A DNA stretch of 49,023 nucleotides from Microcaldota archaeon. GTDB lineage: Archaea; Micrarchaeota; Micrarchaeia; Anstonellales; JAGGVH01. A program made the position numbers and the translations under genes. This document shows, in pieces, positions 10,565 to 41,037 of this stretch. Under the pieces are notes generated by a model. The model ran no database searches. It was not told where the DNA came from and saw nothing but the letters and a program-made list of their open reading frames with translations. Each line of letters opens with the position of its first letter. Position 1 is the stretch's first letter. The stretch covers positions 1 through 49,023 of the forward strand of contig JAGGVH010000016.1 in NCBI GenBank assembly GCA_021158105.1, in the 5' to 3' direction.

Positions 10565-11185
10565 TTACCTTGCAGCCCTTGCCATCCTTTCGATTTCATC
10601 TCTCTTCTTGACAGCATATGAATTCTGCAAGTCACCTTGGGCAGCATATATAATCTCATTAGCCAACGCCTCTGATAAAGAAATCTTTTTATTGAAACAC
10701 CTCATAAGCGATGCCAGTGCAATGTTCCTAAGTGCAAGGTCTAACCTCCTAGTAACAGAAATGTCAACTGCAACTTGATAAGACACACCACCGAACGACA
10801 CACGAGTCACATCCTCCCTAGGCGCAGAGTTTTGTATGGCATCAACGAGCACTTGAATAGGATTCTTTTTGGTTCTCTCATGAATGATGTCAAATGTCCG
10901 CATAACAATCTTTATAACCTTCTGCTTTTTGCCCTGGAGTTTACCATGTGTTCTTATAACTTTGCCCGAAATCTTGTCACCAGTACCGCCACGCATAAGT
11001 TTATTTATCAGTCTCTCAACAATGTTAACTTTATCCTTTCCAAATTGTTTTTTAACGTGCCTCCCAGCAGAATGTGGAGTATGGATAGGAGTAAGGGAAA
11101 TATGCGGTTTAAGTGAAATGTCACTAACTTCAATACCGTCAAATGAATATTTTCCAAACAAAAGAAAAGATTTTGACAAGTCCAT
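10565..11185 (-). CDS. rps7: 30S ribosomal protein S7 (uS7)
   Basis: SAGRHVKKQFGKDKVNIVERLINKLMRGGTG...NSAPREDVTRVSFGGVSYQVAVDISVTRRLDLALRNI. Confidence 0.97.
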   Translation of the reverse strand: MDLSKSFLLFGKYSFDGIEVSDISLKPHISLTPIHTPHSAGRHVKKQFGKDKVNIVERLINKLMRGGTGDKISGKVIRTHGKLQGKKQKVIKIVMRTFDIIHERTKKNPIQVLVDAIQNSAPREDVTRVSFGGVSYQVAVDISVTRRLDLALRNIALASLMRCFNKKISLSEALANEIIYAAQGDLQNSYAVKKRDEIERMARAAR

Positions 11186-11196
11186 GTTATCACCTT

Positions 11197-11625
11197 TTAC
11201 CTCTTAGGTTTTTCTTTCTTTTTCTTCCACAACAGTTTAAGGTCAATATTGTTAACTTTTTCAACTTTAAACCTGACTCCGGGGATTGAACCCATCTGTC
11301 CCCTCTGTGAACCGCCAAGACCAGACAATAATACTTCATCATGCTCATCAATATAATTGATTGCACTGTTTCCCGGTGCATGAGCAGTAACAACCTTCCC
11401 GTTCTTAACCAGCTGAACTTTGACACACTTTATCAGTCCTGAATGCGGCTGTTTTTGCTCAAGTGCACGTTTCTCTAAAACAATTCCTCTAACCATCGGC
11501 GCCTTCCCCGCAGGGTTATACTTAAAATTAAGGTTAAGTTTTCTCCGTTTCCATCTTTTTGATAACCATTTCTGTTTTTTTCTTCTCCTTAAAAGGTCTC
11601 TGCCTGCAAATTCACCATGACCCAT
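11197..11625 (-). CDS. rps12: 30S ribosomal protein S12 (uS12)
   Basis: GKAPMVRGIVLEKRALEQKQPHSGLIKCVKVQLVKNGKVVTAHAPGN. Confidence 0.97.
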   Translation of the reverse strand: MGHGEFAGRDLLRRRKKQKWLSKRWKRRKLNLNFKYNPAGKAPMVRGIVLEKRALEQKQPHSGLIKCVKVQLVKNGKVVTAHAPGNSAINYIDEHDEVLLSGLGGSQRGQMGSIPGVRFKVEKVNNIDLKLLWKKKKEKPKR

Positions 11626-11694
11626 AATACCACCATATTAACATATTATTACACACTTTCACTTTCCACTGTTACACTTAATATAATATATCCA

Positions 11695-12111
11695 TTATTT
11701 TGTTATAAGTTTCAACTCTTTACCATACAATCTCTTTATTATGTCCCTATTTCTTTTAATGATTTCACCACCCTTACCAATTGCAAGCCCGCGATGTTTC
11801 AAATTAATAGTAACATGAACAGTGTCATCTTGTTCACTAACTGAGATTATTTGAATATTAGACATCAAATACTTTATAAATACTTCTATGTTTGGATTAT
11901 ACTCAACAATCCTAACATTCTTTTTAAATTTTTCTTTTAACCTTTTAATAGATGATGCATCACGCCCTATACTTTTACGCAGGAGCCCACGATTGACAAC
12001 GAATAACACATTATTATCTGTAATAACACAGTCCATAGGAGAAACATGTGTTATCCTTTCAAACAGGTTCATTGAACCCAATGTTGTGCTGTCGATAACT
12101 CTTTTTATCAA
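11695..12111 (-). CDS. nusA: NusA-like transcription termination/antitermination protein (KH domains)
   Basis: Position between L30e and S12; KH-like NLKHRGLAIGKGGEIIKRNRDIIKRLYGK. Confidence 0.9.
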   Translation of the reverse strand: MIKRVIDSTTLGSMNLFERITHVSPMDCVITDNNVLFVVNRGLLRKSIGRDASSIKRLKEKFKKNVRIVEYNPNIEVFIKYLMSNIQIISVSEQDDTVHVTINLKHRGLAIGKGGEIIKRNRDIIKRLYGKELKLITK

Positions 12112-12126
12112 AAAATCCCCTTTTAT

Positions 12127-12435
12127 CTATTTGAAAACGTCCAACACCTTTGAGTCGCCCTCATTCAATATTACCATAACTGAAATCGGATGCGGCCGGC
12201 CACATGTCTCACCCAACCGTATTGCAGAATTGGGGTATATGACCAACGGAATCTGTGCAAGTTCTGAATAATATGTTATATCATTCTTTATATCCTTTGG
12301 ACTATCATTAGACAAAATAATCAGTTTGCCTTCACCATTCATCACACTTCTTTTGCATTCATTAATTCCTATGACAACTTTACCAGTATTGTATGCCAAC
12401 CTAATATTCTTTTCAATCGTTCCGATATCTTTCAT
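12127..12435 (-). CDS. rpl30e: 50S ribosomal protein L30e
   Basis: TGKVVIGINECKRSVMNGEGKLIILSNDSP; canonical position after rpoA2. Confidence 0.93.
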   Translation of the reverse strand: MKDIGTIEKNIRLAYNTGKVVIGINECKRSVMNGEGKLIILSNDSPKDIKNDITYYSELAQIPLVIYPNSAIRLGETCGRPHPISVMVILNEGDSKVLDVFK

Positions 12436-13484: not shown

Positions 13485-16028
13485 TCACACATACTTATGA
13501 TACATTGAATATGTAGGATCAAGACCGTCACCACCATAAATAAACTGGATAATCTTACCAGACAACTCTCTTGCACTCAAATCATCACTAACATATATAT
13601 CCTGCAACGCATGTATCATCCTTCTTTGCATATATCCAGACCGTCCAGTCCTGAGTGCTTTTATAACCATCGAATCCCTACCACCCATACTTTGGAAGAA
13701 ATGCTCAACAGGTGTTAACCCTTCAAGGAAAGAACGCGGTATGAAACCTCTTGCCCTTGCACCAAGGTCACCCGGGAGAAAATGTGGCAATGTCCTGTTA
13801 TGGTACCCACGTGTCAACCTTTTACTTCTAACTGACTGCTGTCCAACCATTGCAGACATGTTAATTGTGTTAACTATTGAACCTCTTGCCTTGATCTTTG
13901 CAACGATCAATGCATTGTTATCAGGACCGAATGCATTCTCTATTATTTTCCCGCACAATTTTCTGGTCTTGCCATTTATTTCTAAGATTTTGTTTTCAAG
14001 CGTTTCCTTTAATGTCAATCCTGGTGCACGTTTTAATGTTTTATTCTTATACTTTAAAACTATTGCATCAATCTCTCTCTCAGCATTATTTATTATCTCC
14101 TTTATCTTCTTTTGTGTGGCATCATGCAATTCATATTCCCTGTACCCTAAAGAGAATCCCATAATCTTAAGAGTCGTTAGCCCTAACAATGTACTCCTAT
14201 TCACAAATTCCCTGCCAGCATCATACCCTTTCAAATAGGTCAACTGTTCACCGATTTCCCTATAACTTTTATTGTCAAGTGCACCTTGAACTAAAACACC
14301 ATTCTCAACTTTAACCTGTCCTTCTTCCTTATCAAGCGAATAAAAATCTGTCTTCTCAGAATAGTTTATTCCTTCAGGTATTAAGAGAGACATTAAAAGT
14401 TTACCTGAATATTTGTCACCAACATCAGGTTCGGGGAGGTGAGTAATCCCTGCAACAGATAATAAATAGGACGTTTCAACCTTGTCAAATACTGCATTAT
14501 ACGTAAGCTTAAAAGCTCCTGAAATGTGGTCCTCATTAGGTGCAATTATCATCCTACCATGACGAACAGACAACATCTGTTTGTGAGGCTCCATTAATTC
14601 TTTTGCTTCAACCTGTGCTTCAACACTCTGGATTATATGAAGATTCATCTCATCGCCATCAAAATCTGCATTGTATGGCGGGCACACTGCAGGGTTTATT
14701 CTTAATGTCTTGCCAGGCAACACTTTTGCAGTATGGCCCATTATAGACATCCTGTGAAGTGATGGTTGCCTGTTAAATAGTGTTATATCACCAGATATCA
14801 ATTGCCGTTCAACAACACACCCAGGAATAAGACCGTCAATAACTTCCTGTTTTGTATGTTCAGTGATCTTTACCCTGTGATTGTTTGGCATGATAACATA
14901 AACAGCCTTTGGATATTCATCTGATAAAATATACTTTTTAACTTCTTCAATGTTCCATGTCGTAACCTTGATAGGAACTGTTACCTCCTCTGCAATTGTC
15001 TGTGGAACACCTACCATGTTAATGTCAAGACGCGGGTCGGGTGATATAACAGTCCTAGCAGAAAAATTAACACGCTTACCTGAAAGGTTATACCTAAACC
15101 TTCCCTCCTTACCTTTCAATCGTTGTGCCAAAGTTTTTAATGCCCTACCTGACCTGTGACGGGCAGGAGGAGTGTTTGGGAGTTCATTATTGAAATATGT
15201 GCTCACATGATATTGCAACAGCTCCCATAAGTCTTCTATGATTAACTGCGGCGCGCCAGCATTGATGTTCATTTCCAACCTTTGATTAATCCTTATGATG
15301 TCAACAAGTTTGTGTGTCAAATCATCCTCAGACCGTTCGCCACTTTCCAAGGTTATCGACGGTCTAACGTTCACAGGCGGAACAGGCAGCACAGTTAACA
15401 CCATCCACTCCGGCCTCGCATGGATAGGATCAATCTTAAGCAATCTTAAATCATCATTTGATATGCCTTCTAACCATTCCCTAACTTCAGTGGGCAACAT
15501 TGCGACTTTATCTTTGTAAAAAGTTGTGGGTTTTAAAAGTGTAATCTCAGGTTGTTTAGCACCACAATGGGGGCATACATTACCTTTTAATTTCTTAGTT
15601 TTAAATTTCACAACAAGGTTTGAGGCTTCTTTCTCTTCATCTTCCATTGCTTCATACTCACTCAATTCAGCTTTTAACTTGTCAACATCTTTTTCATCTA
15701 ATATTACCCGATGACATTTTGGACATGTTGAACGTAGAAGATAAAGAATAATCTTTGAATACAAAGGATTTATGACCGGCCTAACAAGTTCAATCCTTCC
15801 AAAATGACCAGAACATGTTCCCATCCTGCCACCGCATGTCCTACACTTTAATCCCGGATCGATAACACCCATCCGAGTATCTATAAGGCCGTTCTCTATC
15901 GGATACCCATCATCATTGTACGTATCTGGAACTGTAACCTTAACTACACTCATCTTTCTAATCTCATCTGGAGATAATACTGTAAATCGCACGCCACCAA
16001 TCTTCTTATCAACTACCAAGTCAACCAT
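13485..16028 (-). CDS. rpoA1: DNA-directed RNA polymerase subunit A'
   Basis: NADFDGDEMNLH catalytic loop, zinc motif CRTCGGRMGTCSGHFGRIEL. Confidence 0.98.
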   Translation of the reverse strand: MVDLVVDKKIGGVRFTVLSPDEIRKMSVVKVTVPDTYNDDGYPIENGLIDTRMGVIDPGLKCRTCGGRMGTCSGHFGRIELVRPVINPLYSKIILYLLRSTCPKCHRVILDEKDVDKLKAELSEYEAMEDEEKEASNLVVKFKTKKLKGNVCPHCGAKQPEITLLKPTTFYKDKVAMLPTEVREWLEGISNDDLRLLKIDPIHARPEWMVLTVLPVPPVNVRPSITLESGERSEDDLTHKLVDIIRINQRLEMNINAGAPQLIIEDLWELLQYHVSTYFNNELPNTPPARHRSGRALKTLAQRLKGKEGRFRYNLSGKRVNFSARTVISPDPRLDINMVGVPQTIAEEVTVPIKVTTWNIEEVKKYILSDEYPKAVYVIMPNNHRVKITEHTKQEVIDGLIPGCVVERQLISGDITLFNRQPSLHRMSIMGHTAKVLPGKTLRINPAVCPPYNADFDGDEMNLHIIQSVEAQVEAKELMEPHKQMLSVRHGRMIIAPNEDHISGAFKLTYNAVFDKVETSYLLSVAGITHLPEPDVGDKYSGKLLMSLLIPEGINYSEKTDFYSLDKEEGQVKVENGVLVQGALDNKSYREIGEQLTYLKGYDAGREFVNRSTLLGLTTLKIMGFSLGYREYELHDATQKKIKEIINNAEREIDAIVLKYKNKTLKRAPGLTLKETLENKILEINGKTRKLCGKIIENAFGPDNNALIVAKIKARGSIVNTINMSAMVGQQSVRSKRLTRGYHNRTLPHFLPGDLGARARGFIPRSFLEGLTPVEHFFQSMGGRDSMVIKALRTGRSGYMQRRMIHALQDIYVSDDLSARELSGKIIQFIYGGDGLDPTYSMYHKYV

Positions 16029-29967: not shown

Positions 29968-31311
29968 TCATTCTTGTTTGCAAACAGAATATCCCACTAC
30001 CTTAACACCATTACTACAATGGACTGGCAGTTTATAGGTTATGGTTAGGGTTTTATCATAAACATTTTCATGGTTTAATGTTATCCAAGGAGTGCAATGG
30101 GTGTTATCCGGAAAGATATAATTATAATCCGGATACCATGTATCAAGATAAATCATCAGCTTACTGCATTCATCAGTCAAAAATTGTGAAGATACCCCTA
30201 ATATATAACCCCCAATCATAAAAAATAATGCAAAAAATAATGCAAAAAATATGATTGATTTATTGTTGACAAATGATGTTGCAAGCGGGAAAAGAAAAAT
30301 TAATGAGATAAACCTTGTGATATCCCCCATCATCCAATGTATTAATATTATGTGGGCAGTTGACAGATGTAACAATCCCCATCCCCTAATGGGTATAATA
30401 TTGTCAAACAATGCAAGAACAATGAGCACTGCGACCAGTAGGATGTACCACTTGGTTTTCATCTCACCTGTGAACGAAAGTAGTATTATCAAGATGACCA
30501 ACGGGTCAAGATACCTAAGATGAGAAGAGGATGATGAGATTAAAATATAAACGATAAGTAGGATTAAATAAGGTTTTAGAATTGTTTTGTTAGGTAGCAA
30601 GAAAACTAAGCCGAACGTGCCGATGGTCAGATAAGGTATGATCTTCATAAGGTTTTCAGGGTTGATATTTGGAGTGTTGCGAAAAAATATCACAGTCAAA
30701 AGTATTAACAATGCTATCAATCCTATCAAAACCATTTTCATGTTTACAGTTTTTTTGTTTATGATGTCTAAGAAAATCAAGATGATAAATGTTAAGAATA
30801 ATGTTGCACCCATAACCTTTGTCAGTGTGGCAAACAATGAAACCAATATAAACAATCCCAAGTTGATGTTAGACTGGTCTGTCCACCATCTTATAAGTAA
30901 AACAAACCCTAACATAAACAAAGGAATGAACAGGTTTTCAGCCATTACCAATGTTGGATAAAACAAAACTGAAGGCAGTAAAATTGAAAATAACATTATT
31001 AAAAACTGGTTAGTCTTATCCTTTGTATATTGAGAGATTAAGTATGCAGGAAACACTAACAAACTCATCATAAAAGCATTAATGTATCCTATAACACCTT
31101 CACCCAGCATTGCCCATAAACTGATAAACAAAGGATACATGGGCCGTGTCCAAAAGAAGTTGTCAGGTGAAAAGGTGGTTAAGGACTTGGCAGATAACAT
31201 GTATAAAGGAGAATCAGGCTGGACATAACCAATACCTGTGAAAAGGATTAATATGGAATGAACAAATAATGATATGAGAAACCAGTATACAACTTTCTCC
31301 AATTTTACCAC
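29968..31311 (-). CDS. Multi-TM GT-C/PMT-like glycosyltransferase (putative)
   Basis: YVQPDSPLYMLSAKSLTTFSPDNFFWTRPMYPLFISLWAMLGEG (acidic residue after TM1) and about 10 TM segments. Confidence 0.65.
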   Translation of the reverse strand: MVKLEKVVYWFLISLFVHSILILFTGIGYVQPDSPLYMLSAKSLTTFSPDNFFWTRPMYPLFISLWAMLGEGVIGYINAFMMSLLVFPAYLISQYTKDKTNQFLIMLFSILLPSVLFYPTLVMAENLFIPLFMLGFVLLIRWWTDQSNINLGLFILVSLFATLTKVMGATLFLTFIILIFLDIINKKTVNMKMVLIGLIALLILLTVIFFRNTPNINPENLMKIIPYLTIGTFGLVFLLPNKTILKPYLILLIVYILISSSSSHLRYLDPLVILIILLSFTGEMKTKWYILLVAVLIVLALFDNIIPIRGWGLLHLSTAHIILIHWMMGDITRFISLIFLFPLATSFVNNKSIIFFALFFALFFMIGGYILGVSSQFLTDECSKLMIYLDTWYPDYNYIFPDNTHCTPWITLNHENVYDKTLTITYKLPVHCSNGVKVVGYSVCKQE

Positions 31312-31779
31312 TCATTCTTGAACAGTGCCTGTTATTGGAACATCCGGCTTATATTCAAACTGCTGGCCAACAACTGAATATGTAAACCCTATGTTAAAAG
31401 AATATGGCTCGCCGGGATTAAAATTCTTATTCATGTTAATCTTGATTATCTTTTTCTCACTAGGATTAAGTTGTGATGACACTGTAAAACTGTCACTGTT
31501 TAGCCAGACATTATCGATCGTTATCGGGGCAGCCTTATTGTTCTTTATATTCAAAACTAATGTGCCGTCTGAATACAAAGAATGTGAACGAATGCCAATG
31601 TCTGAATAATACCAAAAATCTCTATGTCCTGATGATGACATCTGCGAAACCAGTGAAGGAATATTTGTAAAGAATATCGCTGAAGTTAATATTACAACCA
31701 GTACTATTGCCAGCATTAACAAGTATTCAGTTGCAGCCTGACCTTTTCTTTGTGCTTTTATGATATTGATAACTTTCAT
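31312..31779 (-). CDS. Class III signal peptide pilin-like protein
   Basis: KAQRKGQAATEYLLMLAIVLVVILTSAIFF: KG|QxxxE motif followed by hydrophobic stretch. Confidence 0.82.
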   Translation of the reverse strand: MKVINIIKAQRKGQAATEYLLMLAIVLVVILTSAIFFTNIPSLVSQMSSSGHRDFWYYSDIGIRSHSLYSDGTLVLNIKNNKAAPITIDNVWLNSDSFTVSSQLNPSEKKIIKINMNKNFNPGEPYSFNIGFTYSVVGQQFEYKPDVPITGTVQE

Positions 31780-31863
31780 GATGATAATAAAAAGGTAAGG
31801 TATTTAAGCGTTATCACTTTTGCTGAACAATACTATTCGTTTTCATAATAAAGGATTAAATTA

Positions 31864-31932
31864 AAAGTTTAGTTTAAAGTTTTACGCAAAACTTCAAAGT
31901 TTAGTTTGAAATTATGCAATTATTTATAAAGG
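31864..31932 (+). repeat. Direct repeat A, upstream copy (contains TATA box of ATPase A)
   Basis: 69 nt; matches 33225..33293 with 4 mismatches; ends in TTATTTATAAAGG. Confidence 0.95.
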
Positions 31933-31953
31933 TTTTGGAATTTAATATAGTAT

Positions 31954-33216
31954 ATGGACATTATTGAAATTGAAAACCAAAATCCTTGGTGGAATGATGA
32001 GGAATGGTTCAAAAAAGACCAAAAACTTATAACGGTTGAGAGGTCTGCTGTCAGTCTTGAATGGAAGCCATTTAAACTGGCAGAAGGAATTTATATTGTG
32101 TACGGCCCCAGACAAGTAGGAAAAACAACATGGGTTAAACAGGAAATTAAAAAACTTACTGATAAAAAAAAATATAATATATTATACCTCGCATGTGATG
32201 GAATCCTTTCAAATAAGGAATTTAAAAAAACACTCATAGAAATCTTAAAATATAAAAATTTTAAATATATATTTCTTGACGAGGTAACATTCATTGAAAA
32301 TTGGGAACAAATAATAAAATATCTTGCTGATTTAGGTAAATTTGAAGGGAAAACTGTGGTATTGACAGGATCATCATCACTCAATGTACTTAGAAAATCA
32401 GAGAGGCTGACTGGAAGACTAACAAAACAAAAACGATTTTATCCTTTAACATTTAGAGAATTTGTTAATGCAAAGATTAACACATCACCAACCAATGAAC
32501 AGTTATTTTATTTATTTAGGAGATATCTAATTCATGGAGGAATTTTAAAAGTTATTAACGAATATGAAAAAAATGGGTTTGTATCCTCTGACACTGTAAA
32601 TGATTATAGTGGAGCAATAGACGGAGAACTTTCAAAGATAAGGCATTCATCACGAATATTTAATTATATTCTCTCGCGTATCATAAAAACAATGACAAAC
32701 ACAATTTCATGGTCATCTATAGCAGGATCAGAAATTTCACAACCAACTGTATCTGATTATATTGAAATAGGAAAACAGCTTATGTTTATTGAATATATTG
32801 AAAATCTAAATTCATATGACAAGTCTTTCACAAAAAACAAAAAAATTTATTTTGTCGATCCTTTTATGTTTTGGGTTTCGCTCCATAGGATAAAAAGAAT
32901 TGGGGATGTTGGATTGGATAGTATTTTACCATATGAAAGCAAACTTGTGGAAAATGCTGTCTTTTCAAATCTTTTAATATATATTGATAAAAAAATTAAC
33001 CGTTCTATGTTTAATATACGTGATCACTTATTTTATATCAAAGATAGAACTGGGGAGATTGATTTCTACATAAATAAAAAGAAGATTGAAGTAAAATGGA
33101 CTAATAATTTTATTAAAAAACCAGACATTTTATACTTAACAAAAAGCAGTTTAAGCAGGAATGAAATACCTGTATATCAATTTTTATATGATATCGAAAA
33201 ATATGTAGGGTTATGA
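31954..33216 (+). CDS. STAND/AAA-like P-loop ATPase with DUF4143-like C-terminus (cassette A)
   Basis: Walker A GPRQVGKTTW, Walker B YIFLDEVTFIENW, VVLTGSSSL; C-terminal GEIDFYINKKKIEVKW (PD-(D/E)XK-like). Confidence 0.88.
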   Translation: MDIIEIENQNPWWNDEEWFKKDQKLITVERSAVSLEWKPFKLAEGIYIVYGPRQVGKTTWVKQEIKKLTDKKKYNILYLACDGILSNKEFKKTLIEILKYKNFKYIFLDEVTFIENWEQIIKYLADLGKFEGKTVVLTGSSSLNVLRKSERLTGRLTKQKRFYPLTFREFVNAKINTSPTNEQLFYLFRRYLIHGGILKVINEYEKNGFVSSDTVNDYSGAIDGELSKIRHSSRIFNYILSRIIKTMTNTISWSSIAGSEISQPTVSDYIEIGKQLMFIEYIENLNSYDKSFTKNKKIYFVDPFMFWVSLHRIKRIGDVGLDSILPYESKLVENAVFSNLLIYIDKKINRSMFNIRDHLFYIKDRTGEIDFYINKKKIEVKWTNNFIKKPDILYLTKSSLSRNEIPVYQFLYDIEKYVGL

Positions 33217-33224
33217 AAAATCTC

Positions 33225-33293
33225 AAAGTTTAGTTTGAAGTTTTACGCAAAACTTTAAAGTTAAGTTTGAAATTGTGCAATTATTTATAAAGG
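33225..33293 (+). repeat. Direct repeat A, downstream copy (orphan TATA box)
   Basis: Begins 8 nt after the stop of ATPase A; 65/69 identical to 31864..31932. Confidence 0.95.
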
Positions 33294-33316
33294 CTCCGGT
33301 TCTGGACAGATAAAAA

Positions 33317-33374
33317 TATTTCTTTCTGTTCATAGAAAGAAAATTGGTAAATTCTTTCTATTGGTAGAAAGAAA
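33317..33374 (-). repeat. Direct repeat B, downstream copy
   Basis: 58 nt identical to 34671..34728; abuts the stop codon of ATPase B. Confidence 0.97.
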
Positions 33375-34634
33375 TTATTTTAACAGCCATTTCCAAACGG
33401 GCAAAACTTGAATCTCTCTACCACCTATCTTGATCGTATCCTCAGTGTCATATGTAATAATTTCATTTGAATGTTTGAACATCTTTGATGCTTCTAAAAT
33501 TCCTTTAACTTCTCTGTCATAATTGTCTTGATTTAAAGTGTATGTAACCTGAATAGATTTGTTTGATGTTATAAAATCACATTCAAACCCATTCTTATAA
33601 TAATTAATCATCTTTTCTCTTCTGCGTAGTTCCAAATAAACTATATTCTCCAACATTCTTCCTATATCTTTATCAGGCACATAATAATTTATGAAGGCAT
33701 GGTCCATCACATAATTCTTTTTTGAATATGAAAGCTCTTTTTTCCCTTTATGTCTTGGGGTTATTAAATCTAAGAAATAAACCTCTTTTAGCATACCAAC
33801 ATAACTATGAATAACTGATGTGCTTGATTTATAATTTAAACTTTTTGCAAAATTATGAAACTTATTCATAGAAAATTCTTGAGAATAATTTTTTATTATA
33901 TACTTCATTAACAAATCCATTAAATCTCTATTCTTTATATTATACCTTTCAATTATATCCCTGTAGAATATCGTTTTAAAATAATCATCAATTATGCCCA
34001 ACCGGTTTTCTAAAACAATTTCTGGAAATCCACTCAACCTAACATAATCGTCAAACATTTTTTTTACCTTATGCTGCAATTTTCCATATTCCCAATTCTC
34101 TTTAAGTTTAACTCCTCTAAAAACTAAAAATTCTTTAAATGAAAGAGGAAACAACTCTATAGAATACGCCCTGCCTCTTAAAGATGTTGCAATCTCTCTA
34201 CTAAGTAGATTTGAGTTTGAGCCAGTGATATAAACAGTATATCTTTGCTCCTGTAATCTCCTTATGAATTTGTCCCATCCTCTAATGTTTTGTATTTCAT
34301 CAAAAAAAAGTATTGGTTTTTTGTCTGGATATAATTCATTATATCCTTCTAATATATAATTCAACTGTTCCTTCCTTATGTCTGAAATCCTTTCATTTTC
34401 AAAGTTTATGTATAAAAAATCTGTTATATCTTTACCAACTTTCATCTTTTCATTCATTATTTGATAGAGCAGATATGTTTTTCCAGCTCTTCTCGGACCA
34501 ACAACTGTTATAATTTTATTTATTTTCTTAAACTTGGGTATTTTAACATCTCTTTTGTAAAAATCAGGTATTCCAGTATCATGAAACTCCATTATGATTT
34601 CTTTTATGAACCTTTTTAACTCATAATTTTCCAT
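33375..34634 (-). CDS. STAND/AAA-like P-loop ATPase with DUF4143-like C-terminus (cassette B; start trimmed to MENYELKRF)
   Basis: Walker A GPRRAGKTYLL, Walker B ILFFDEIQNIRGW, VYITGSNSNLL. Confidence 0.88.
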   Translation of the reverse strand: MENYELKRFIKEIIMEFHDTGIPDFYKRDVKIPKFKKINKIITVVGPRRAGKTYLLYQIMNEKMKVGKDITDFLYINFENERISDIRKEQLNYILEGYNELYPDKKPILFFDEIQNIRGWDKFIRRLQEQRYTVYITGSNSNLLSREIATSLRGRAYSIELFPLSFKEFLVFRGVKLKENWEYGKLQHKVKKMFDDYVRLSGFPEIVLENRLGIIDDYFKTIFYRDIIERYNIKNRDLMDLLMKYIIKNYSQEFSMNKFHNFAKSLNYKSSTSVIHSYVGMLKEVYFLDLITPRHKGKKELSYSKKNYVMDHAFINYYVPDKDIGRMLENIVYLELRRREKMINYYKNGFECDFITSNKSIQVTYTLNQDNYDREVKGILEASKMFKHSNEIITYDTEDTIKIGGREIQVLPVWKWLLK

Positions 34635-34670
34635 ACTATTATCTACTAAATAAACATTTTTAAACCTTTC

Positions 34671-34728
34671 TATTTCTTTCTGTTCATAGAAAGAAAATTG
34701 GTAAATTCTTTCTATTGGTAGAAAGAAA
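34671..34728 (-). repeat. Direct repeat B, upstream copy
   Basis: 58 nt, 100% identical to 33317..33374; directly upstream of the TATA-like TTTAAAAA of ATPase B. Confidence 0.97.
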
Positions 34729-34730
34729 GT

Positions 34731-34782
34731 TGTTTTCTGTAAAAAACAAAAATGTATGTTTTTGTTCTTTTGAAAAAACAAT
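34731..34782 (-). repeat. Direct repeat C, downstream copy
   Basis: 52 nt, 1 mismatch to 36050..36101; overlaps the last base of the stop codon of ATPase C. Confidence 0.96.
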
Positions 34783-36020
34783 TATAGGATTGAATAAAAT
34801 ATATAAAACGGAAGTTTATACACCCCATCTTTTTCAGAAATATCCAATCCTTTATAAACAATTATTTTCTTGAACTTAGTTTTTATGTTATTAAACTGCT
34901 GGAACCCTTTTTTCTTTGAACCTATTTCAATTAGATAATCTTTCCAAACAAAATCAATATTATCTAAAAAATAAACATTTGTAAAATTAGATGCAAATAT
35001 ATCTTCAGTCATATTCCCAACAGTTTCTGACTCTGGGATCAACATCATATCAGCATACTCCTTTCTTATAGATGGGACAATAAAATAATATTTCCATTCC
35101 TTTCTTGCAGAAGATTTACCCATTTTGTAAGGCAATACCCTTTTTATGATTTCACCTCTCTCAAGAAGATTAAGCATACTACCCACCATACTCTTTGAAA
35201 CTCCAAGATCATTAGACAATACTGTATAATTAATCTTATTAGAAGCTGATAATAAGAGAATCATCCTTTCAAATTTATTCAGAGTGTATGTTTCCAGATT
35301 TCTTGACTTTGCAATGTCTGAATATATTACTTTTTCAACAAGGTCTTTTAATGTTTTAGGAGAATTATCAAACAGGTATGGTAGATTATTATTTATATAA
35401 TCATCAACAATATTTAATAAATTTGACACTTTATCATGAATATAGATATCATATCTCATTGCACTTCTCAATAAATCTTCACCTGGATTAAACCTTTCAA
35501 GTTTTACACCAGTCCTAATAAATATATATTCTCTAAATAACAAGGGGGGCAGGTGAACATAATTTGCACGTCTTGCAAGTTTTTGTTTGGATTCCTTAAT
35601 ATTTAAAGATGATGAACCAGTAATATAAAATTTCATTTTAGTATATTTATCATATGCAACTTTTATTTCATCCCACCAGTTAGGATAAGCATTGATTTCA
35701 TCTATAAACACTATTGCATCATCACCAAATAGATATTGAACCGCTTTTAAAACACTAAGTAAAGGTAACTTAACAGTGGATATCTCCTCCCCATGAATAT
35801 AAACTCGTTTACTTTCGTCAGATTCATTATATTTTTGGAACATGATAGTTGTTTTACCACTGCCACGTATACCATACATAATATTTAAACGTTTATTAAA
35901 CATATCATAAAAAAATCTTTTTTTATATTCAACATAATCTTTAGACGTCTTTTCATATCCAATCTTAGAATATTTAACAAATTCAACTGCATCAATAGAA
36001 TTTACTCCAAAATTATTCAT
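34782..36020 (-). CDS. STAND/AAA-like P-loop ATPase (cassette C; start trimmed to MNNFGVNS)
   Basis: Walker A YGIRGSGKTTIM, Walker B IVFIDEINAYPNWWDE, FYITGSSSLNI, wHTH-like YTVLSNDLGVSKSMVGSMLNLLERGEII. Confidence 0.86.
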   Translation of the reverse strand: MNNFGVNSIDAVEFVKYSKIGYEKTSKDYVEYKKRFFYDMFNKRLNIMYGIRGSGKTTIMFQKYNESDESKRVYIHGEEISTVKLPLLSVLKAVQYLFGDDAIVFIDEINAYPNWWDEIKVAYDKYTKMKFYITGSSSLNIKESKQKLARRANYVHLPPLLFREYIFIRTGVKLERFNPGEDLLRSAMRYDIYIHDKVSNLLNIVDDYINNNLPYLFDNSPKTLKDLVEKVIYSDIAKSRNLETYTLNKFERMILLLSASNKINYTVLSNDLGVSKSMVGSMLNLLERGEIIKRVLPYKMGKSSARKEWKYYFIVPSIRKEYADMMLIPESETVGNMTEDIFASNFTNVYFLDNIDFVWKDYLIEIGSKKKGFQQFNNIKTKFKKIIVYKGLDISEKDGVYKLPFYIFYSIL

Positions 36021-36049
36021 GTTTATTATATATACATATATATTTATAA

Positions 36050-36101
36050 TGTTTTCTGTAAAAAACAAAAATGTATGATTTTGTTCTTTTGAAAAAACAA
36101 T
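36050..36101 (-). repeat. Direct repeat C, upstream copy
   Basis: 52 nt, matches 34731..34782 with 1 mismatch; immediately upstream of the AT-rich promoter of ATPase C. Confidence 0.96.
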
Positions 36102-36428
36102 GCTTTTAGATATCACCAATCTTGCTTGAAAAGAATTCTACTATTTGTCCACTATAACCATTATAATAAGATCCTTCCATAATAGGATTATACATTTTTT
36201 AGTTAAAAATTGTGATTAAACATTTGATGTTTAGGTTAAATGTTAACTGTTAAGGATAAGAGTTAGAGTGGTTAACTGATAGTTTTTATAAAACATTTTC
36301 AACAGTCAACCCCCATAAAACCCATAATAACCTTTTTAAAACTATATGATATAATATACTTGAATATTTAAATGAATGTTTGAAAATAAAAAGTAAAAAG
36401 TTTGATGTTTGAACGGAGGTGTCAGAAG

Positions 36429-36806
36429 ATGAAGATAAACATGTTGTTTGCAATGATGTTCATTGCATTGTTAATGATGAATGTGTGGAGTGATCTTGGT
36501 GATGGTGCCTTGGTTGATGATGATGATGGTGGTGATGGTGATGATATTACATTTGGTAGTCTTAGAAATGTGCTTTGTGAAGTTAAAAAGGGAATTGAAG
36601 AATTATTAGGACCGATCGCATTCCTGCTTGTTGTAATGGCAGCAGTGATTTATGCTGGTGGACAACTCGGTGATGCACAACTCAGGGCAAAGGCGCAGGG
36701 TTGGGCAGTCGGTGCACTCGTTGGTGCTATCATAGCGTTTGTTTTATATGCAGTAGGACCAACTATTATAACAAAGATGTTTGGCGCTACTGATTGTCCT
36801 CCATAA
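36429..36806 (+). CDS. Small two-TM VirB2/TrbC-like pilin (copy 1)
   Basis: Signal peptide, then LLGPIAFLLVVMAAVIYAGGQLGDAQLRAKAQGWAVGALVGAIIAFVLY; SD-like GGAGGTG upstream. Confidence 0.7.
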   Translation: MKINMLFAMMFIALLMMNVWSDLGDGALVDDDDGGDGDDITFGSLRNVLCEVKKGIEELLGPIAFLLVVMAAVIYAGGQLGDAQLRAKAQGWAVGALVGAIIAFVLYAVGPTIITKMFGATDCPP

Positions 36807-36816
36807 GGTGAACATC

Positions 36817-37170
36817 ATGAAACCTCTTTTTTCTTTTATTTTGTTTTCAATGCTTCTTACCGGTTTTATCTTTGCATATGAAGATGAAGACAGTGGCATG
36901 ACCAAACTCACAGACGTGTTATGTAAAGTTGAAGCTCAACTTATTACTCTTCTCGGACCGATCGCATTCCTATTAGTTGTCATGGCGGCAGTCGTATACG
37001 GTGGAAGCCAGTTAGGTGATGCACAACTCAGGGCAAAGGGCCAAGGTTGGGCAGTCATGGCAATTGTCGGTGCAGTCATAGCATTCGTTATAATGATGTT
37101 CGGCCCTTGGCTGGTTGAAACCATGTTCGGCGGAAAATGTGAAGGGGGAGAATGGGTAGTAACTGAATAA
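36817..37170 (+). CDS. Small two-TM VirB2/TrbC-like pilin (copy 2)
   Basis: LLGPIAFLLVVMAAVVYGGSQLGDAQLRAKGQGWAVMAIVGAVIAFVIMMFGPW; close paralogue of copy 1. Confidence 0.7.
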   Translation: MKPLFSFILFSMLLTGFIFAYEDEDSGMTKLTDVLCKVEAQLITLLGPIAFLLVVMAAVVYGGSQLGDAQLRAKGQGWAVMAIVGAVIAFVIMMFGPWLVETMFGGKCEGGEWVVTE

Positions 37171-37226
37171 TGCCATTTTCTAAAATTTTCGAAACATTTA
37201 TAAATAATCTAAAATAAAATAGAAAC

Positions 37227-37814
37227 ATGAGAAAGAAAGAATTTGTATATCTATACCTCTCAAACAATTATATTAAAGGTAAAATTAAATTTACACAGAA
37301 AGAAATAGCTGAAAAACTCAACATTTCTTTAAGCACAGTCAACAATGCTCTTCGCCCATTAGTAAAAATGAATTCTATTAAAGTTGGGCACATGGGATTA
37401 GAAATAATTGACTTTGAAAAGATAATGGTTTACTGGGCGACAATAAGAAACATTAACAAAGATATAATCTACAAGACATTCTGTCCATACAGACCATTAA
37501 GGATTGAATCGAGTTTGCCTTCAGATGTTATATTCACTGGATATTCAGGATATAGGATCTTAACAGGTGACGCACCAGCAGACTATGGTGAGATTTATGT
37601 TTATTCAAACAATCCAAAAGAAATCGAAAAAAGATTTCCAAAAAAGAAAGGACCCACCAATTTAATAGTGCTTGCATACGATGAACACTTAGAAATGTTC
37701 AAACAAAAAAACTGTGCACCTTTGCCCTTAATCTTTGTTGACATTTGGAACCTGCCGCAGTGGTATGGCAAAGATTTTCTTGATAAGATAAAAAATAAAC
37801 TTTTTAACAGGTGA
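37227..37814 (+). CDS. HTH protein, putative AbiEi-like antitoxin
   Basis: HTH FTQKEIAEKLNISLSTVNNALRPLVKMNSIKVG; SLPSDVIFTGYSGYRILTGDAPADYGEIYVY; TATA TTTATAAAT about 25 nt upstream. Confidence 0.68.
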   Translation: MRKKEFVYLYLSNNYIKGKIKFTQKEIAEKLNISLSTVNNALRPLVKMNSIKVGHMGLEIIDFEKIMVYWATIRNINKDIIYKTFCPYRPLRIESSLPSDVIFTGYSGYRILTGDAPADYGEIYVYSNNPKEIEKRFPKKKGPTNLIVLAYDEHLEMFKQKNCAPLPLIFVDIWNLPQWYGKDFLDKIKNKLFNR

Positions 37815-37818
37815 TTAG

Positions 37819-38448
37819 ATGAAGGAATACTGGCCAGAGCACGTTACACAAAAAAGTTGGGAAAGATTAACAAGATTAACAAAAGAGTTTGATTTTATAC
37901 TGATAGGTGGCTGGGCAGTTTATCTATACACTGGATTGCACAAATCAAAAGACATTGACATTCTCATCAATCTTGAGACATTATACTCTTTAAAAAGCAT
38001 GTATGACTTAAAGAAAAATGAACATCTTAAAAAATATGAGATTGAAGACAATGAGTTTGACATTGACATCTATGTCCCACATTTCTCACAACTTGCAATA
38101 CCTGTTGAAGATATCATTAACATGGACAACCCGATAATCAAAGGAATAAAGACTGTAACACCTGAGGTATTATTGACCTTAAAACAATCTGCATTTATTG
38201 ACCGCCACAGCTCAGTAAAAGGCGGTAAGGATGCTATTGACATAATAACACTGTTGATGTATACTGATGTTGACTTTGAAAGATATATCACTCTTCTTAA
38301 CAAATACAAACATAAAAATTATCTTAACAATCTGTTGCAAATCATACAATCTTTTAATGATATTGAATACACTGGAATGGACTTTATAAAATATAACCAT
38401 TGGAAGAAAGATATAATTAAAAAGATAAAAGCAAGCAAATCACTTTGA
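37819..38448 (+). CDS. Nucleotidyltransferase-fold protein, putative AbiEii-like toxin
   Basis: LIGGWAVYLYTGLHKSKDIDILI (GG...DxD NTase motif), EFDIDIYVP; 4-nt gap from the HTH partner. Confidence 0.72.
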   Translation: MKEYWPEHVTQKSWERLTRLTKEFDFILIGGWAVYLYTGLHKSKDIDILINLETLYSLKSMYDLKKNEHLKKYEIEDNEFDIDIYVPHFSQLAIPVEDIINMDNPIIKGIKTVTPEVLLTLKQSAFIDRHSSVKGGKDAIDIITLLMYTDVDFERYITLLNKYKHKNYLNNLLQIIQSFNDIEYTGMDFIKYNHWKKDIIKKIKASKSL

Positions 38449-38472: not shown

Positions 38473-41037
38473 CTATTTATACCTTAAAAACGCCCCTATC
38501 CCAAAAAACATATTCTTAAACTGTGCACCTTCAGTAGTATTAGTAGAAATAAAATGATATTCAATGTTATGCCTATTAGCAAGATTAACAAGGTAATCAA
38601 TCAAAGGCATAGTTTCACTGTTAGGTTTAACTTTATCACCGGGCTTGATTATCCTGACATCCTCTTCACCATCATCGCCCTTAACAATCTCAACTGTATA
38701 ATCCAAATCTTCTGATATCAAAACAGAATCGGCTTTATAACTCTTTATCGCATCAATCACAGGCTTGAGACCATAAACTGCAAGCCCGCCGGTTACTGCA
38801 TCACCAATGAACCGCGACACCATCTTACGCTCCTGCATAGCCTCTTGTTCCATTATTATATCTTCACCTTTTCGTATGATTTCATTAATCCCTGCCTCAT
38901 CAGTATACCCAACATCTATAAGAGGTTTTAAAACCTTTATTTGATAATTAAACGGTTTCATCTTAATAAAATTCTCCTTGGCAGGACCGGGCCCGCCGAT
39001 CAAAACACCTTTAACCTGGTTTGGCATAAAATATCTATCCATGTACTCCCCTATCCGCTTATAATAATTTTCAATCTCCTCAGTAATCAAACGTTGATAT
39101 CGTGCTGCACTGTTATGAACAACAAAACTGTTTGCTATAAAATTTTTATATTCAGGAATAGTCAAATCATAAACTTCTTTTTCTATTCCTAACTTATCAA
39201 TGCTCGCTACTACTGCAGGAATAAGATCTGATGAAACTAAAACAGACATCTCATCCACAATTTCTTTATATCTCTTATAATTTGAGTCGCCCTTAAATGC
39301 TGATAACTGCTTTCTGAACACTGGCAAAACCTTTGCCTTAAACCTTTTACTGCCAATGCCCCTCTTTCCACTGAAAAACATGTTTAACCCGTCAAAATCC
39401 CTTGTTTTCATACCCATCTTATGTGCCTGTTTTAAAACATACCTGCCGTCCACTGGAACCTGCCTGATAACTTGTGTTACAGTTTCAGCTTTACATATCT
39501 TTTTACATCTTTCTTGTTTTGAAGACAAACTAAAACCTATTTCATTAGTAAAAATCTTAACAGATTCTAAATCAGATATGATCAACCCCCACTGCCTCTT
39601 TTTCTGGTTTTTATCAGTATGTTTCTCATAAACAGTTGATATGATCCCAAAACGTAATAACAACATTTGCAACTTTCGTATCAATTTTTCGGTAGTCATA
39701 GCAATTTCTATTTTTGTGTTTGCAATATATCCTTCCGCATCAAATAAACCCCTTATAAAAGCACTACAAACATTATTATCAGATTTCATTACAATCTCGG
39801 GTATATCTCTATTATCACTCTTTTCAAATACTGTTTTACTTATCTGTTTCAACATCCGTCCAAAATTCCTACCATAAACCCTTAATTCAAGATATGTCTT
39901 TTTTGCAAAGCTTCCTTTTTGTTTAGTCTTGTCGACCGTTCTTACTTTCGTATCGACTCCAAAAGTTTTTGAGATAAGTTTTGAATATAAGTCAACCAAT
40001 TCCTTTTTTGATTCATACAAAACCACTTTATCCCCATCAAAAGAACCATCACCTGTGAGATAACCTATAACCTGTGCGACATCACTGTTAAAATATCTAG
40101 GAAATTTGGGCAGTTTTGCTCCTTGTCTTCGCACCAGGCCAATCTTCAATGGAACCTCAACACCTTTGTGTGGTATGCATCTTACAGACAAAACCTTATC
40201 GCCTTTTTTAAGGTCTTTTGCCAACCTTTCCCCAATCCCATTCTCAGTGATTACAAAGAATCTATGTCCAGCAGTCGCCCTTATCTCCATTGTAGGATAT
40301 TTTGTTTTTATCAAGAATATTGACCTGTTCAAATTTTTAGTAACTACGGGGCAGATATAATCTTTAACTGAATAATCCTTAAAACTTGAAACTTTAAGAT
40401 AATCGTTCGGAAGAAGGTTTTTTATCTCAGTTATCACACCATCAGACTTTTGCACCAGCGTACCAGGATGCAAACATTGCCCACCGACGTGCACTTTAGC
40501 ATGTGCTGTTGAATTGACCTCTTTAAGCTTTTCAACTTCAGTACCTTTCAAGTAGGCCAGTGTAGCCTGCCTACCGTCCATCGCCAAAATTCCATAAACG
40601 TCAGTGTGTGATATCATACGTTCTAAAGGTTCAAGAAAGAATTTTGAATCACACCTATAAATCTGAACAGATAACGGTACCGGCGGCAGGATCGAAAACA
40701 GTTTAATGTCAACTTTTGCAGGGTTATCTGACACATTACCACAGAACACTGCAATACCGTTTTCAGGTGTCCGTCCAAGATTTTTAAGAAAACCTATAAC
40801 TTTCTCAAGTGCATCGCCCACATTAGTCCGTGTAGTCTTAGATTTAATATTGGTTGACTGGCTCCGCTCACTCCTTAATTTATTTGTTACTTCATGAAGT
40901 TGATACCCTGCAGGTATATAAACCGATATGAGCTGTGTACCACTACCCTTAAGTTTTCTTAAATAATCCAATTTACGTTTCAATTCAAACTTCTGATCCT
41001 TTGTAATGACCACTGGAACATCATCTGAAGCTGCCAT
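38473..41037 (-). CDS. prf1: Peptide chain release factor aRF1, interrupted by an in-frame intein
   Basis: Extein halves: ...STAHAKVHVGGQ / SAARYQRLITEEIENYYKRIGEYMDRYF...; host protein 399 aa after removal of 455 aa. Confidence 0.96.
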   Translation of the reverse strand: MAASDDVPVVITKDQKFELKRKLDYLRKLKGSGTQLISVYIPAGYQLHEVTNKLRSERSQSTNIKSKTTRTNVGDALEKVIGFLKNLGRTPENGIAVFCGNVSDNPAKVDIKLFSILPPVPLSVQIYRCDSKFFLEPLERMISHTDVYGILAMDGRQATLAYLKGTEVEKLKEVNSTAHAKVHVGGQCLHPGTLVQKSDGVITEIKNLLPNDYLKVSSFKDYSVKDYICPVVTKNLNRSIFLIKTKYPTMEIRATAGHRFFVITENGIGERLAKDLKKGDKVLSVRCIPHKGVEVPLKIGLVRRQGAKLPKFPRYFNSDVAQVIGYLTGDGSFDGDKVVLYESKKELVDLYSKLISKTFGVDTKVRTVDKTKQKGSFAKKTYLELRVYGRNFGRMLKQISKTVFEKSDNRDIPEIVMKSDNNVCSAFIRGLFDAEGYIANTKIEIAMTTEKLIRKLQMLLLRFGIISTVYEKHTDKNQKKRQWGLIISDLESVKIFTNEIGFSLSSKQERCKKICKAETVTQVIRQVPVDGRYVLKQAHKMGMKTRDFDGLNMFFSGKRGIGSKRFKAKVLPVFRKQLSAFKGDSNYKRYKEIVDEMSVLVSSDLIPAVVASIDKLGIEKEVYDLTIPEYKNFIANSFVVHNSAARYQRLITEEIENYYKRIGEYMDRYFMPNQVKGVLIGGPGPAKENFIKMKPFNYQIKVLKPLIDVGYTDEAGINEIIRKGEDIIMEQEAMQERKMVSRFIGDAVTGGLAVYGLKPVIDAIKSYKADSVLISEDLDYTVEIVKGDDGEEDVRIIKPGDKVKPNSETMPLIDYLVNLANRHNIEYHFISTNTTEGAQFKNMFFGIGAFLRYK
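39112..40476 (-). mobile_element. Intein with LAGLIDADG (DOD) homing endonuclease domain inside aRF1, 455 aa
   Basis: C1 start CLHPGTLVQKSDG, block B ATAGHRFFV, endonuclease motifs VIGYLTGDGSF and FIRGLFDAEGYI, C-terminus FIANSFVVHN followed by +1 Ser. Confidence 0.96.

Follow-up and report, generated by a model that had tools for sequence, protein, structure and literature searches.

Gene-specific flanking repeats with a 32-33 bp internal period at AAA_14/DUF4143 ATPase genes: probable private double sites of one-gene candidate defence units

Introduction

Three adjacent ATPase genes of a Microcaldota archaeon are each bracketed by a direct repeat that is found at no other gene, which raises the question of what these repeats are and why every gene has its own. 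The DNA analysed here (the window) is a whole contig of 49,023 nt, designated C43, from a draft genome of 962 kb in 50 contigs (G000). An earlier note on this DNA had interpreted each gene as a minimal recombining or mobile cassette, and had offered an operator function of the repeats as the alternative.

The three proteins resemble the candidate defence entry PDC-S01, in which an ATPase is fused to a PD-(D/E)XK-like domain. In its passages on PDC-S01, PMC12988326 places the entry fourth by frequency among prokaryotic defence entries, with 9986 archaeal and 29494 bacterial instances, states that multiple PDCs are enriched in DPANN and that experimental validation is pending for most such candidates, and makes no mention of flanking repeats or double sites.

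Results and Discussion

The three repeat pairs and their genes

Self-BLAST of the window recovered the three direct-repeat pairs where the earlier note had placed them (Table 1), with E values of 9e-24, 9e-24 and 2e-18 and identities of 94%, 97% (over an extended match, 33317-33381/34671-34736) and 98% for A, B and C, respectively. The spacing was also as claimed: the downstream copies begin +8, 0 and -1 nt from the stop codons, and the units are separated by gaps of 23 nt and 2 nt. No other non-coding direct repeats of that strength less than 6 kb apart were found by self-BLAST in the 49-kb window, and in the 241 kb of G000 that were scanned nearly all non-coding direct repeats less than 6 kb apart bracketed an AAA_14/DUF4143 gene. 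The proposed uniform order of repeat, promoter, ORF, stop codon and repeat held for B and C, in which the TATA-like sequence lies outside the repeat, but required amendment for A. Both copies of repeat A include the TATA-like TTATTTATAAAGG, and the downstream A copy therefore carries a promoter too. Known RNA elements were rejected as the identity of repeats A, B and C, since there were no Rfam matches across 31000-37300.

Table 1. Positions of the three ATPase genes and their flanking repeats in the window.
Feature	Position	Strand	Remarks
Repeat A, upstream copy	31864..31932	+	Double site, 32-bp internal period; TATA-like TTATTTATAAAGG within 3′ end
ATPase A, 420 aa	31954..33216	+	AAA_14 E 3e-28; DUF4143 E 6e-10; PADLOC PDC-S01 E 5e-28; PD-(D/E)XK-like motif EIDFYINKKKIEVK
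Repeat A, downstream copy	33225..33293	+	8 nt past stop codon
Repeat B, downstream copy	33317..33374	-	Abuts B stop codon
ATPase B, 419 aa	33375..34634	-	AAA_14 E 1e-38; DUF4143 E 8e-12; PDC-S01 E 3e-104; PD-(D/E)XK catalytic Lys missing (ECDF...IQVTY)
Repeat B, upstream copy	34671..34728	-	Two TTCTTTCT-N6-AGAAAGAA palindromes, 32 bp apart; immediately 5′ of TATA-like GGTTTAAAAATG
Repeat C, downstream copy	34731..34782	-	Overlaps last base of C stop codon
ATPase C, 412 aa	34782..36020	-	AAA_14 E 1e-25; DUF4143 E 3e-8; PDC-S01 E 8e-27
Repeat C, upstream copy	36050..36101	-	Double site, 32-bp period; 5′ of TATA-like TTATAAATAT

All three proteins scored over the Pfam cut-off for AAA_14 and DUF4143 and matched PADLOC PDC-S01 profiles, an assignment that agrees with the DUF4143/MNS-type identity guessed previously. 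In the AlphaFold model of ATPase B (mean pLDDT 88.6), an AAA+ domain is followed by a helical/winged-helix middle part, and the C-terminal domain is of the alpha-beta kind. When this model was compared with solved structures, the first matches included Orc/Cdc6-DNA (2QBY) and an archaeal Walker ATPase (2QEN); the global TM-scores were low (0.24-0.46), so the fold match is at the level of domains only. A PDB sequence search gave no convincing relative, and an NCBIfam search gave none. The PD-(D/E)XK residues are complete in A (E-V-K), and the lysine is absent from both B (Q-V-T) and C (E-I-G), as it is from the Bacteroidales relatives. Cleavage by B is doubtful because of the missing lysine.

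Flanking repeats across the family

More than 30 AAA_14 matches over the cut-off were present in G000, a genome of less than 1 Mb. An own flanking direct repeat was found at about 17 of the 32 testable AAA_14/DUF4143-type genes of this genome, i.e. those with both flanks: 14 passed a strict test, which required a score exceeding the best of 20 shuffles by at least 5, and a further three (L002, L009 and L021) were clear on closer look. The earlier note had suggested looking for flanking self-repeats at other archaeal DUF4143 ATPase loci, and these were indeed present; across G000 and a sample of relatives from its order they accompanied 33/96 distinct family genes versus 1/76 control ORFs. In 80 loci of other genomes, mostly Bacteroidales, the corresponding counts were 22/84 genes and 3/180 controls, and one of the repeat-positive loci, L186, is from a complete chromosome, that of Bacteroides fragilis Q1F2. 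The same flank result was obtained for L058, from the host order, and L181, from Candidatus Micrarchaeota archaeon CG1_02_49_24, with 55% identity to B, and on this basis the host is probably Micrarchaeota-like. Relative to the ATG, the upstream copy generally lies at about -130 to -15; relative to the stop codon, the downstream copy lies at about -30 to +30. Site-gene-site is a widespread design of this candidate defence family. The design is not universal: on assorted plasmid and phage records, 12 homologues were inspected and flanking repeats were absent from all of them.

These counts bear on the suspicion that the pattern arises by chance, annotation or faulty assembly, the last of which had been named in the earlier note. 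G000 is a draft genome in 50 contigs, and several family genes lie near contig ends. The same pattern, however, recurs in dozens of independent assemblies, including the complete chromosome L186, at frequencies far above those of shuffles and control genes; an artefact is statistically refuted and extremely improbable.

Each repeat was confined to its own locus. When 16 concatenated repeats were compared with the genome by BLAST, each matched around its own gene and nowhere else, except that two arrays (on contigs C42 and C11) held extra copies. Barring weak short matches, the flanking and array copies were all that the genome yielded at E<=1, with no solo or dispersed repeat, and the search for dispersed copies in the host that the cassette interpretation had called for was thus negative.

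A common double-site architecture

The three repeats had been described as unrelated to each other. This was correct for their letters but not for their plan: for all six copies in the window, the strongest match of the repeat to itself was at an offset of exactly 32 bp, a match that was reached by 0/1000 shuffles for A and B and by 8-15/1000 for C. The upstream plan in the family consists of two, sometimes three or four, palindromic sites with a period of 32-33 bp located 5′ of the promoter. In an ungapped self-match test with shuffles, the best upstream offset fell at 31-34 bp for 33/101 archaeal genes versus 4/198 controls, and for 38/88 bacterial genes versus 1/177 controls. Many Bacteroidales members share their sites by descent; counting by protein clusters (50% identity), which corrects for part of this only, gave a 31-34 bp double site in 38/103 clusters versus 4/259 control clusters (Fisher p=2e-19). 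A 32-33 bp internal period is common to archaea and bacteria. In other orders of the class the double site was found at only 4/21 genes. Three or four iterated upstream sites with a 32-33 bp period were seen at the Bacteroidales genes L225, L226, L215, L220 and L240.

The upstream regions were enriched in inverted repeats (p=4e-9); downstream the enrichment was weaker (p=0.005). The downstream copy was undetectable in more than half of the family members and is therefore optional. The double site was also present upstream of relatives that have no downstream copy, and the many genes with an upstream double site and no detectable downstream copy indicate that the upstream element is primary.

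Conservation of the site with the gene

Orthologues of B from other genera, L051 (64% identity) and L058 (55%), retained TTTCT..AGAAA palindromes upstream, and across the family genes with more similar proteins had more similar upstream regions (p=0.005). The palindrome motif with its 32-bp period also stands 3′ of the stop codon in L051, despite low overall identity to the upstream copy. The DNA around L051 has no match to the window; persistence of the downstream motif and its period in a different context indicates that the downstream element is maintained. Between the two copies belonging to one gene, differences were fewer in the palindrome arms (11/274) than in the intervening DNA (20/184; p=0.007 in what is a small test). 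The sites are thus palindromic, adjoin the core promoter and are conserved with the protein in orthologues elsewhere, as operators are, and the operator alternative of the earlier note was borne out in these respects.

The maintained downstream site of L051 also bears on the reading that downstream copies are relics of tandem duplication, in which the second gene of a site-gene-site-gene array was lost. Tandem paralogue arrays do exist in genome G008 (L080), and on contig C42 (L150) a third repeat copy still includes the promoter and initial codons of an ATPase copy that has been lost. That is the single instance seen. In near-identical pairs (B 97%, C 98%, L029 and L093 100% for the greater part of their length) the match stops short of the start codon, so every deletion must have shared the same endpoint, and L051 retains a diverged yet intact downstream double site. 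The tandem relic was rejected as a general explanation and is considered highly improbable.

Proposed function of the repeats

We propose that each repeat is the private double binding site of its ATPase gene, made of two palindromic sites about 32-33 bp, or three helical turns, apart. It is very probable that each repeat is a double site cognate to its gene. That the gene's own product is what binds it is also likely, with distinctly less assurance. The ATPase is predicted to combine an Orc/Cdc6-like AAA+ core, a winged helix and a PD-(D/E)XK-like domain (without the catalytic lysine in B). At the promoter it would most likely bind the upstream copy as a multimer and repress its own gene, and autoregulation through the site is probable. 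In about one third of family members in the order, the same element at the stop codon would turn the gene into a self-delimited one-gene unit. Such units, as members of PDC-S01, probably serve in anti-phage defence, and would be exchanged between genomes; the window would then hold three of them side by side. We lean, with modest confidence, towards this model as a whole, i.e. multimer binding of a private double site, self-repression, and a second copy that closes an exchanged one-gene unit.

Gain and loss of units

Genome G001, from the same genus, is collinear with the window; G001 and G000 are only ~70% identical. In G001 the pilin-like and VirB2-like genes that flank the trio lie ~130 bp apart, the ATPase genes are absent, and none of the repeats A, B and C could be traced at this locus. 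The absence may reflect gain in G000 or loss in G001. The units of C11 and C42 are likewise missing from the syntenic places in G001, and genomes G022 and G031 have the conserved neighbour gene of the L103 unit, followed by neither unit nor repeat. Flank searches in a plasmid collection gave no usable empty site. The units are accessory genes that were probably gained and lost as a block. The cassette interpretation was upheld to the extent that one-gene units are gained or lost. It failed in its prediction of recombination that leaves solo repeats: three empty sites were read for operator-type repeats, that of the trio in G001 and those of L103 in G022 and G031, and none held a solo repeat, in agreement with the genome-wide search. 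Overall, the operator idea best explains the repeats, and the cassette idea the presence or absence of the units.

A stronger form of the cassette idea is a true single-gene mobile element, in which the ATPase, or a host recombinase recruited by it, excises and reinserts the unit through the direct repeats in the manner of a transposase. It would account for terminal repeats specific to each unit, for units present or absent beside conserved flanks (at the trio, L103 and other loci), for patchy copy numbers among relatives and for units in both orientations and in arrays, and the protein is an AAA+ ATPase with a nuclease-like domain. Active transposition, however, would be expected to leave near-identical second units or repeat copies elsewhere in the genome, and there were none; no solo site, excised circle or short target duplication outside repeats A, B or C was seen; and the catalytic lysine is missing in B and the Bacteroidales relatives. 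Such an element is unlikely. The related combination, in which the AAA+ product recognises the private double site at both ends and controls, beyond expression, whether the gene is excised, inserted or retained, would make this leading candidate defence family a new kind of minimal, self-delimited element that spreads as a mobile unit in itself; it is rated marginally higher and is still improbable.

Target-derived duplications at other loci

Long direct repeats around a gene can also be copies of its insertion target, and insertion with long target duplication was proposed for Helicobacter restriction-modification genes (Nobusato et al. 2000, as cited in PMC3031569 and PMC4978471). As described there, the likeness to the present units lies in defence-type genes between direct repeats with no integrase; the difference is that the repeat there is the target, whereas for A, B and C it is borne by the gene. 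G000 has both kinds. At L151, L191/L192 and L179 the repeat does correspond to the sequence of the empty target. A HEPN-MNT pair is followed by a 65-nt copy of a gene 3′ end, and L015 lies inside an outer repeat of 132 nt; at L191/L192 the final 107 nt of the gene upstream recur behind the ATPase; a box C/D sRNA-like gene is duplicated around an ATPase of G001; and the flanking repeat of L291 looks like a tRNA 3′ end.

For the trio, the empty sites contain no repeat sequence, and target duplication was therefore rejected for A, B and C; the empty site of L103 is equally free of it. The element is, moreover, conserved upstream of orthologues in other contexts, and L015 carries both layers separately, an inner 36-nt palindromic repeat and the outer 132-nt one. 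As an account of the repeats in place of ATPase sites, target copying is quite unlikely. Target-derived long duplications are instead a second, separate layer at other loci, beside the gene-borne sites that we favour for the trio.

Several of these loci were of interest in themselves. On C11 (L151:6451-9386) the gene 3′ end occurs three times, intact, behind the HEPN-MNT pair and behind the ATPase L015, and this triplicate is a long target duplication from two successive insertions. In G001 (L179:8000-8086 and 11179-11327) an ATPase and a beta-helix gene lie between two box C/D sRNA-like copies, a call made by eye, and in G000 (L166, C48) a single such copy is followed by a different ATPase; the two congeners thus have different ATPases inserted at a box C/D sRNA-like gene. 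The flanking repeats of L291, L288 and L314, from other orders of the class, resemble tRNA or protein gene ends, i.e. target duplications and not double sites. C42 (L150:2693-7712) contains two repeat-ATPase-repeat-TA-repeat arrays with paralogous RelE/ParE-type genes, in which TA-type genes stand between copies of the ATPase repeat.

Relation to known systems

The gene-specific double site of conserved architecture is a new feature beyond what is known of PDC-S01. No description of flanking repeats for the AAA_14/DUF4143 family was found in a literature search that missed most subscription journals. Orc1/Cdc6 and DnaA-type initiators provide one point of comparison, through the AAA+ and winged-helix fold matches and the iterated palindromic sites on one DNA face. 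They differ in that the trio has no origin context and its sites are private, at the gene's own promoter and stop codon. Toxin-antitoxin operators are palindromic, lie at their own promoter and are autoregulated, with many orthogonal paralogues per genome. The ATPase genes share with them the palindromic operator-like site at the own promoter and the many orthogonal paralogues in one genome, whereas the ATPase unit is a single gene and its putative operator is often repeated after the gene. In pdif/Xer modules and integron cassettes, small gene cassettes are likewise arrayed between short direct repeats, but there one shared type of site is used by a common recombinase, and here every ATPase gene has its own.

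The private double site, with its period of 32-33 bp in archaea and Bacteroidales, provides a concrete candidate ligand for each family member, and the dozens of natural protein/site pairs offer divergent specificity on one scaffold. The site-gene-site layout also raises the question of whether the family is found in defence islands through defence or through mobility.

Genes adjoining the trio

Three further features were noted beside the trio. Two tandem genes for VirB2/pilin-like small membrane proteins (36402-37170, + strand) share a 138-nt repeat of 78% identity (36609-36746/36955-37092), and G001 has more copies. Between the VirB2-like genes and an aRF1 gene lie genes for winged-helix (wHTH) and nucleotidyltransferase-like proteins (37227-38448, + strand), AbiE-like by eye, for which G001 seems to have no room. 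The aRF1-like peptide chain release factor gene itself (38473-41037, - strand) contains an apparent intein of ~450 aa; in the aRF1 of G001 the extein halves are contiguous, where the matches to query positions 11575-12212 and 13579-14168 adjoin.
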